From an uncultured Halieaceae bacterium (GTDB lineage Bacteria > Pseudomonadota > Gammaproteobacteria > Pseudomonadales > Halieaceae), in the NCBI GenBank assembly GCA_913057135.1, contig CAJXNM010000001.1:62001-126000 (forward strand): a DNA stretch of 64,000 nt, read 5' to 3'. Position 1 is the stretch's first letter. The number at the start of each line of letters is the position of its first letter. The notes below the pieces were generated by a model. It made no database searches. It was not told the origin of the DNA and was given only the letters and a program-made list of their open reading frames with translations. Shown here piece by piece: positions 62,062 through 64,000 of the stretch. Both the position numbers and the translations under genes were made by a program.

Positions 62062-63022
<961 letters not shown>

Positions 63023-64000
63023 TTAGAACGGCAAATCTTCAACGCCTATGTCAACCAGGGCTCTACGCAAAACACCGGTGACGCGATTGAGGCTTGTTTC
63101 ATCGTTGCCTTCAAAACGAAATTCTAATGCCGCCTCGTGGTCGCAGGCACGAACCAAGCCCCAGCCATCGGCATAGTCGATTCGGAAACCATCGAGAGTC
63201 GTTACCCGAGCTCCCGAGAACTCTGCACCGTTATTGCTGAGCGTGTTTAGCACCGCCGTGCTGTGGCCCTCGTCCACAGCTAGCCGTAACATCGAGGTGA
63301 TGTTCGATTGAGGCAGGTCTGCGACCAAGTCGGCATAGCTGCTGCTAGCCATAGCCAGTAGCTCAAGTAAGCGGGCACAGCCGTACATGGCGTCGCTAAA
63401 GCCATACCAGCGGTCGTTGATAAACACGTGGCCGTCGAACTCACCCCCAAGCGCCGCGTTCGTTTCCAGTACTTTGCGATAAACGAAGGCATCACCGCTC
63501 TGCACCATAAGAGCTCGTCCGCCCGCTTTGGTGATGTAAGGTGCAAGATGCCGGCTGCTGCTTACGTCATAGACCACATCAGCCCCTGGATTGCGCTCGA
63601 GAATATCTTGCGCCAGAAGCATCATCAGTTGGTCGGTCGCCACCGCTTCGCCGGTATTGGTCACTGTAAACAGTTGGTCCCCATCGGGGCCAAGCAGTAC
63701 GCCCAGGTCCGCGCCCTCGGCTTGGACTCTCTGCCCCAGTTGTTCAAGGGCCACTGATCGCTGCCAGTTCTCAGGCCGTTGCGAGGGGTCTGCAAGATTC
63801 AACTCAATGACCTCGCAGTCCAGAGCACCCAGTAGAGTTTCCGCCAGGCTGTTCACTAGTCCAAAGTTGAAGTCGACGACGACTTTTAATGGCAGTGCCA
63901 GCGACACATCCATGACAATACGATCGATATAGTCGCTTGCAGGGTCTTGGCGTGTGGCGTAGCCGTTACCGGTGACTTGCAGACCTTCCCGTATGCCCAA
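63023..64000 (-). CDS. AlgC-like phosphomannomutase/phosphoglucomutase family protein, degenerate active site (5' part beyond window)
   Basis: About 325 C-terminal residues are visible and the N-terminus lies outside. Fold and position (dut-algC-argB order) point to AlgC: for example GHVFINDRWYGFSDAMYGCARLLELL and TTLDGFRIDYADGWGLVRA align well. Key loops are changed. The metal loop DGDGDR is GPDGDQ (63674-63691), the sugar loop GEMSGH is GEFDGH (63428-63445), the phosphate loop RASNTTP is RACDHEA (63131-63151), and KTGHS is QSGDA. It may be a pseudoenzyme or have a different substrate. The catalytic serine loop is not in view. Confidence 0.85.
   Translation of the reverse strand: MGIREGLQVTGNGYATRQDPASDYIDRIVMDVSLALPLKVVVDFNFGLVNSLAETLLGALDCEVIELNLADPSQRPENWQRSVALEQLGQRVQAEGADLGVLLGPDGDQLFTVTNTGEAVATDQLMMLLAQDILERNPGADVVYDVSSSRHLAPYITKAGGRALMVQSGDAFVYRKVLETNAALGGEFDGHVFINDRWYGFSDAMYGCARLLELLAMASSSYADLVADLPQSNITSMLRLAVDEGHSTAVLNTLSNNGAEFSGARVTTLDGFRIDYADGWGLVRACDHEAALEFRFEGNDETSLNRVTGVLRRALVDIGVEDLPF

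Follow-up and report, generated by a model that had tools for sequence, protein, structure and literature searches.

The closest described relative of the protein analysed here is AlgC, the PMM/PGM of P. aeruginosa, an alpha-D-phosphohexomutase with the same four-domain fold. Four functional loops are recognised in this family, serving phosphoryl transfer, metal, sugar and phosphate (PMC6443537). The known mechanism requires phosphoserine 108, and the S108C variant of PMM/PGM is described as inactivated yet still able to bind G1P, G6P and X1P (PMC5509744). The present protein, hereafter called the pseudomutase, differs from the P. aeruginosa enzyme in having no phosphoserine, no His308 and little of the phosphate loop. 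The crystallised P. aeruginosa enzyme (463 aa), in turn, has no counterpart of the membrane sensor-like part found in the pseudomutase; other long-form relatives with intact loops also carry that part. The algC gene of P. fluorescens (L075) likewise has coaBC and argB nearby.

Three further systems offer partial parallels. PGM5, the inactive phosphoglucomutase of vertebrates, is an inactive member of the superfamily that has been retained as a protein (PMC7761743); however, PGM5 keeps the serine and still binds metal and substrate, and its inactivity has subtler causes, whereas the pseudomutase has lost the serine and several loops and is a bacterial membrane protein. In the GlmM-CdaA complex (PDB 7olh, 7ojs, 9g69), a phosphohexomutase binds the diadenylate cyclase CdaA through the latter's cytoplasmic domain, so a mutase fold is able to bind a cytoplasmic signalling domain. 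GlmM is an active enzyme and forms a separate chain in this complex, whereas in the pseudomutase the dead fold and the membrane part share one chain. Bacterial pseudokinases are dead enzyme domains retained as putative regulators (PMC12599244), albeit of an unrelated fold. No report of a bacterial or sensor-fused pseudo-phosphohexomutase was found in the literature searched, which left out most subscription journals.

Locus, active-site loops and fold

Within the window (the whole stretch of DNA analysed, 64,000 nucleotides), positions 63023..64000 of the minus strand form an open frame that holds codons 494-818, the last 325 of a gene for an 818-aa protein. The gene extends beyond the window end and spans G000:C1:125023-127479 of the query genome in full, its 5' part (C1:126001-127479) lying outside the window. 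Upstream, it overlaps coaBC by 4 nt, and downstream argB (62099..62995, minus strand) follows 27 nt past its stop codon, in the conserved order coaBC-algC-argB. The locus had been called the canonical algC locus in the original prediction, which was made before any homologue was searched for, and this held. In Pseudomonas, dut lies between coaBC and algC; it is absent from this interval in the query genome. The only match to the dUTPase family PF00692 in that genome is sub-threshold and lies elsewhere (G000:C22:36363-36620).

The altered loops and the retained motifs (VTNTG, GHVF, RWYGF, ARLLE and DGWGLVRA) that had been listed in the original prediction are all present. On the minus strand, VVVDFNFG (codons 533-540, 63860..63883) stands in place of VVVDCGNG; the metal loop reads GPDGDQ (codons 597-602, 63674..63691) in place of DGDGDR, with the first Asp and the Arg lost; DVSSSR (codons 638-643, 63551..63568) replaces DVKCTR, with loss of Lys285; and QSGDA (codons 660-664, 63488..63502) replaces KTGHA/S, with loss of His308. 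The sugar-binding loop GEFDGH (codons 679-684, 63428..63445) keeps Glu325 and His329 while Ser327 is changed to Asp, and the phosphate-binding loop RACDHEA (codons 777-783, 63131..63151) keeps Arg421 and has lost the Ser-Asn-Thr of RASNTTP. The reference forms used in the prediction held only in part, as GEFSGH and KTGHA, not GEMSGH and KTGHS, are usual in the family Halieaceae. The change from Met to Phe in the sugar loop and from Ser to Ala in the His loop are thus ordinary in the family, and the real departures in these two loops are S->D, K->Q, T->S and H->D.

The serine loop lies upstream, beyond the window (C1:126073-126090, minus strand), and reads TGGSGP, compared with TGSHNP in intact relatives; Ser108 (P. 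aeruginosa numbering) is replaced by Gly. Since no phosphoserine can form without this residue, the known mutase cycle cannot run. Measured against the features of active PMM/PGM (AlgC), the query protein therefore fails the phosphoserine motif T-x-S-H-N-P; it also fails the requirement for three metal-loop Asp residues, two of which are retained, and the phosphate loop RASNT, which reads RACDH, while of the sugar loop GE-x-S-GH the Glu and His are kept and the Ser is changed. Membership of the fold is met, as Pfam domains I-III (PF02878/79/80) score above their curated cut-offs.

Conservation was assessed at 107 alignment columns with an invariance of at least 97% across 87 intact relatives, 20 of them active-site columns and 87 others; part of the active-site list is general background on the family. 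The query protein is changed at 11/20 active-site columns (Tyr17, Ser108, His109, Asp242, Gly243, Arg247, Lys285, His308, Ser423, Asn424 and Thr425) vs 19/87 other columns (p=0.005), and among the nine active-site columns that it keeps are Arg20, Lys118, Asp244, Asp246, Glu325, His329 and Arg421. When all 18 proteins of the genus (see below) were considered, 12/20 active-site vs 18/87 other columns were kept by fewer than half of them (Fisher p=0.0015).

The phosphohexomutase fold starts at about residue 366 of the query protein, and residues 366-810 match P. aeruginosa PMM/PGM at 7.5e-83. Domain IV (PF00408) was not reported by Pfam at 1e-3 in the query protein, although both the phmmer alignment and the model of an ortholog cover it. 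This ortholog, from the marine isolate HTCC2080, is 47% identical to the query protein. In its AF2 model, the mutase part reaches a pLDDT near 90, and the model aligns in Foldseek to P. aeruginosa PMM/PGM chains at 39% identity with a TM of 0.90-0.95 by target length, i.e., the fold is kept. The NCBIfam equivalog for PgmG (NF046027) gave 281 bits for the query protein, below the curated cut-off of 600; the model is not diagnostic here, as the intact protein of NOR5-3 also falls below the cut-off (451).

Ahead of the mutase part, the N-terminus has two hydrophobic helices that flank a presumably periplasmic part, and a linker follows the second helix, as read from the sequence and the ortholog model without a topology predictor. 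The HTCC2080 N-terminal part was modelled separately (mean pLDDT 73.5), and the best Foldseek matches were chemoreceptor models and Cache-type sensor domains, e.g., KinD, at modest TM values, the highest being 0.68 by target length. In Pfam searches, no Cache family matched the query protein at 1e-3 or the HTCC2080 N-terminus at 1, and dCache_1 matched 6/26 related N-termini (best 1.6e-8). A strongly conserved stretch was observed inside the periplasmic part (12 sequences).

Distribution, selection and a second clade

The genus of the query genome is likely Luminiphilus, a name taken from the best-matching relatives that share the loss: the nine best-matching named records with the same loss are labelled Luminiphilus (7), Halieaceae bacterium (1) and HTCC2080 (1), and one same-genus protein is identical to the HTCC2080 protein. 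In an inspection of 35 of 80 matched loci for loss of the serine, ten had lost it (nine of the Luminiphilus group and L072, see below) and 25 were intact. At E<=1e-40, the gene was found in 18/57 Luminiphilus genomes (10/17 high-quality ones) and not found in the remaining 39 (7/17 high-quality). Both Ser108 and His308 are lost in 18/18 Luminiphilus proteins. None of the 18 contains the motif T[GA]SH anywhere; two carry an unrelated T-x-S-H away from the loop. Elsewhere in the family, the gene is present in 78/83 genomes, and T[GA]SH and the His are kept at 79/79 loci from these 78 genomes, all of which were examined; the Ser is also kept in 9/9 outgroups of the same order. The alignment of homologues thus places the loss of Ser108 and His308 in every gene-carrying Luminiphilus genome found and at none of the 79 other loci of the family. 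Because the loss recurs in 18 genomes, an assembly or sequencing error was ruled out as the source of the substitutions.

The 18 Luminiphilus proteins form one clade (SH-aLRT 100) in a quick tree that included every other one of the intact family rows (39 of 78) and gave long-branch warnings for L043 and L015. Decay of the loops is graded, from the HTCC2080 group, which keeps D-x-DGDR, to L015, L022, L023 and L044-L046, which have almost no loop left; for these six most decayed proteins the loop alignment is unsure. The three metal Asps are kept in 13, 8 and 11 of the 18 proteins, the phosphate loop is variable too, and Glu325->Asp is common to 15/18. Positions at which a new residue has become fixed mostly lie outside the loops. 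A second, short AlgC-like copy in another family genome (L212, G134:C106:1812-3104) has an open frame of 452 aa with an intact Ser loop and the phosphate loop RPSVTEP; it was left out of the conservation and selection sets.

None of the 18 Luminiphilus matches has an internal stop, and 17/18 have full-length frames, L010 running off its contig end. In six pairs drawn from four sequences of the HTCC2080 group, dN/dS of the mutase-like region was 0.029-0.045 (NG86; dS 0.5-1.7), and in the pair L022/L045 it was 0.138 (bootstrap 0.085-0.213); intact pairs (n=83) spanned 0.018-0.18 with a median of 0.079. For the neighbours argB and coaBC, values in the same pairs were 0.02-0.11 where both copies were available. 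For L022/L045, the mutase value exceeds those of both coaBC (0.084) and argB (0.026), which disfavours strong constraint in that sub-group. The mutase part was more constrained than the membrane part in all five Luminiphilus pairs where both could be estimated. These pairs overlap and are not independent, the low values rest on a single four-sequence group with dS up to 1.7, and no usable pair contains the query protein; no YN00 estimate could be obtained for several distant pairs, and saturation left some NG86 values undefined. Within these bounds, the mutase-like domain is under purifying selection in the few measurable pairs and not a simple pseudogene, with the reservation that selection was not measured on the query lineage. 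A neutral pseudogene is correspondingly weakened by dN/dS and not excluded for the most decayed sub-group.

Six of the seven high-quality Luminiphilus genomes without the gene yielded an argB, and in 6/6 of these it lies directly next to coaBC (junctions L128-L133). The neighbour tree requires two losses, so that at least two deletions took place within Luminiphilus, and the function of the gene is consequently dispensable in some species.

The same architecture and locus occur in L072:1447-3954, a gammaproteobacterial MAG record, with TGGHNP and DVDGDA. A search of 55 genomes (that of L072 and its relatives) gave matches in 43, and among the best 30 of these, 15 carry S108G (including L072) and 15 are intact. 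In this second dead clade (clade 2; L072 and the L216-L230 set), S108G, R247A and K285A are fixed in 15/15 and Tyr17/Asp18 are lost, and His308 (15/15), GE-x-x-GH (15/15) and RAS-x-T (12/14; L219 is cut there) are kept. In 11/11 pairs, dN/dS was lower in the mutase part (0.058-0.119) than in the N-terminal part (0.10-0.27). The algC gene lies beside coaBC in 15/15 and has argB as a neighbour in 14/15 of these loci. Position 285 corresponds by numbering to Arg280 of XcPGM, which is a sugar contact (PMC6443537); by this analogy for 285, R247 and K285 are likely to contact the sugar, and sugar binding in clade 2 may thus be reduced.

In the mutase tree, which left out 7/18 Luminiphilus proteins, the two dead clades stand apart and their union was not rejected (AU p=0.075). 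The argB+coaBC tree rejected the union (p=6.5e-17); this was a quick tree with 6/18 Luminiphilus left out and one very long row (L120), and it is silent on transfer of algC alone. A single shared origin of the two dead clades is accordingly rejected by the argB+coaBC tree and not by the mutase tree, and two separate losses of catalysis, in Luminiphilus and in clade 2, are likely without being certain.

Interpretation and rival explanations

The three hallmarks of a pseudoenzyme, namely loss of catalytic residues, retention of the fold and purifying selection, are all seen at the level of sequence, selection not having been measured on the query lineage. The claims of the original prediction that catalytic loops were selectively lost with the fold retained, and that the protein is a pseudoenzyme, are hence well supported, the loss being genus-wide and purifying selection being seen in the measurable pairs; its suggestion of a regulatory or scaffolding role is plausible, helped by the Cache-like membrane sensor part and by the second dead clade, but is inferred without an assay, a ligand or a partner. 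With moderate confidence, and well ahead of its rivals, the reading favoured here is that of a conserved pseudoenzyme derived from a membrane-anchored AlgC, in which a Cache-like sensor and a dead mutase serve as a regulator; the regulation itself is an inference. The Cache-like part, presumably periplasmic and placed between the two hydrophobic helices, would respond to a periplasmic cue, and the linker would join it to the four-domain dead mutase fold, so that sensor and fold make up a transmembrane regulator. The dead mutase domain would be the output: by binding a protein (or a sugar phosphate) it would regulate the synthesis of sugar nucleotides or of the envelope, with ManB doing the chemistry. 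Luminiphilus has lost most of the phosphate loop, so a role in sugar-phosphate binding is less credible in this genus and protein binding is the putative favoured output; in clade 2, those loops that are retained would still permit sugar-phosphate sensing.

A bolder reading is possible, in which long-form AlgC would be both a signalling protein and an enzyme. Its mutase domain would read cytoplasmic hexose-phosphate levels and link them to a signal from the periplasm; in lineages whose CpsG/ManB renders this chemistry redundant, catalysis could be dropped and the receptor role kept, as would have happened at least twice. This is made less probable by the loss of R247 and K285, the probable sugar contacts. 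One fold has apparently lost the same chemistry twice at the same locus with the membrane part kept, which hints at an overlooked non-catalytic role of long-form AlgC. Every genome of the genus in which the gene was found has a dead version, and intact relatives serve as controls; the system thus amounts to a natural experiment.

Among the rival explanations, the one that survives best is that the gene is on its way out, ManB redundancy permitting a slow decay that ends in deletion without any new function. This is supported by the absence of the gene from the same site in two or more lineages, by the graded loss of loops from the HTCC2080 group to L022/L023, by the CpsG-type mutase in most of the family, and by the weaker constraint of L022/L045 relative to the neighbour genes. 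It is nevertheless unlikely, given the full-length frames in 17/18 proteins without a stop inside any of the 18, dN/dS far below 1 (0.029-0.045) at dS of 0.5-1.7 in the HTCC2080 group, the stronger constraint on the mutase part than on the membrane part in 5/5 pairs, and the fixed set of replacements in clade 2.

A changed enzyme, whose cleft would act on a related ligand in a different reaction that needs no phosphoserine, would agree with constraint on the whole mutase domain, with the retention of Arg20, Lys118, two metal Asps, Glu325, His329 and Arg421 in the query protein, and with Glu325->Asp in 15/18 proteins. This too is doubtful, because His308 is lost in 18/18, the metal Asps (13, 8 and 11 of 18) and the phosphate loop vary, unlike one conserved new site, and few newly fixed residues fall in the loops. 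That only the membrane sensor matters, the mutase fold being a passive leftover platform, is very unlikely: the N-terminal part is kept in 18/18 (judged by open frames and match starts) and includes the strongly conserved periplasmic stretch (12 sequences), but the mutase part is the more constrained of the two in 5/5 Luminiphilus and 11/11 clade 2 pairs.

The probable source of phosphomannomutase activity

Which gene supplies phosphomannomutase activity, the question raised by the original prediction, can be answered at the sequence level. Besides the pseudomutase, the query genome encodes two PF02878 proteins, GlmM (on C8) and a second mutase of the CpsG/ManB type (C2, L006:5842-7197), which lies beside galU and manC. 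Its loops are intact (TASHNP, DGDFDR, KTGHA, GEMSAH and MSNTEP), and it is the most likely source of the activity, an inference from sequence alone. An algC gene at the coaBC-argB locus is therefore no proof of phosphomannomutase activity, and the activity in Luminiphilus (marine OM60/NOR5) is likely that of ManB.

Relatives of this CpsG/ManB protein, mostly 72-80% identical, are present in 47/57 genomes of the genus and in 17/17 high-quality ones (that of G065 is broken). They occur in 16/18 carriers of the pseudomutase; the exceptions, G018 and G060, are 75 and 78% complete. A CpsG-type mutase (80-100% identical to L214) is also found in 14/15 genomes of clade 2, three of these being fragments, and was not found in G155. 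Across the family, it is present in 121/140 genomes, in most of them beside an intact AlgC; the raw tally was 125/140, from which G070, G072, G073 and G134 were removed since they matched only through AlgC itself. Because the two mutases stand side by side in most of the family, redundancy probably preceded catalytic loss. That acquisition of ManB caused the loss was rejected as a simple story, as the CpsG type coexists with intact AlgC across the family.

Single genera depart from this pattern in both directions: G075-G077 (genus g16) have a CpsG-type mutase and no AlgC match at 1e-40, and G070, G072 and G073 (g15) have an intact AlgC and no CpsG-type match at 1e-60. One in-frame TAG each was observed in two otherwise conserved CpsG/ManB matches (G044:C59:11031-12377 and G147:C23:76314-77660).
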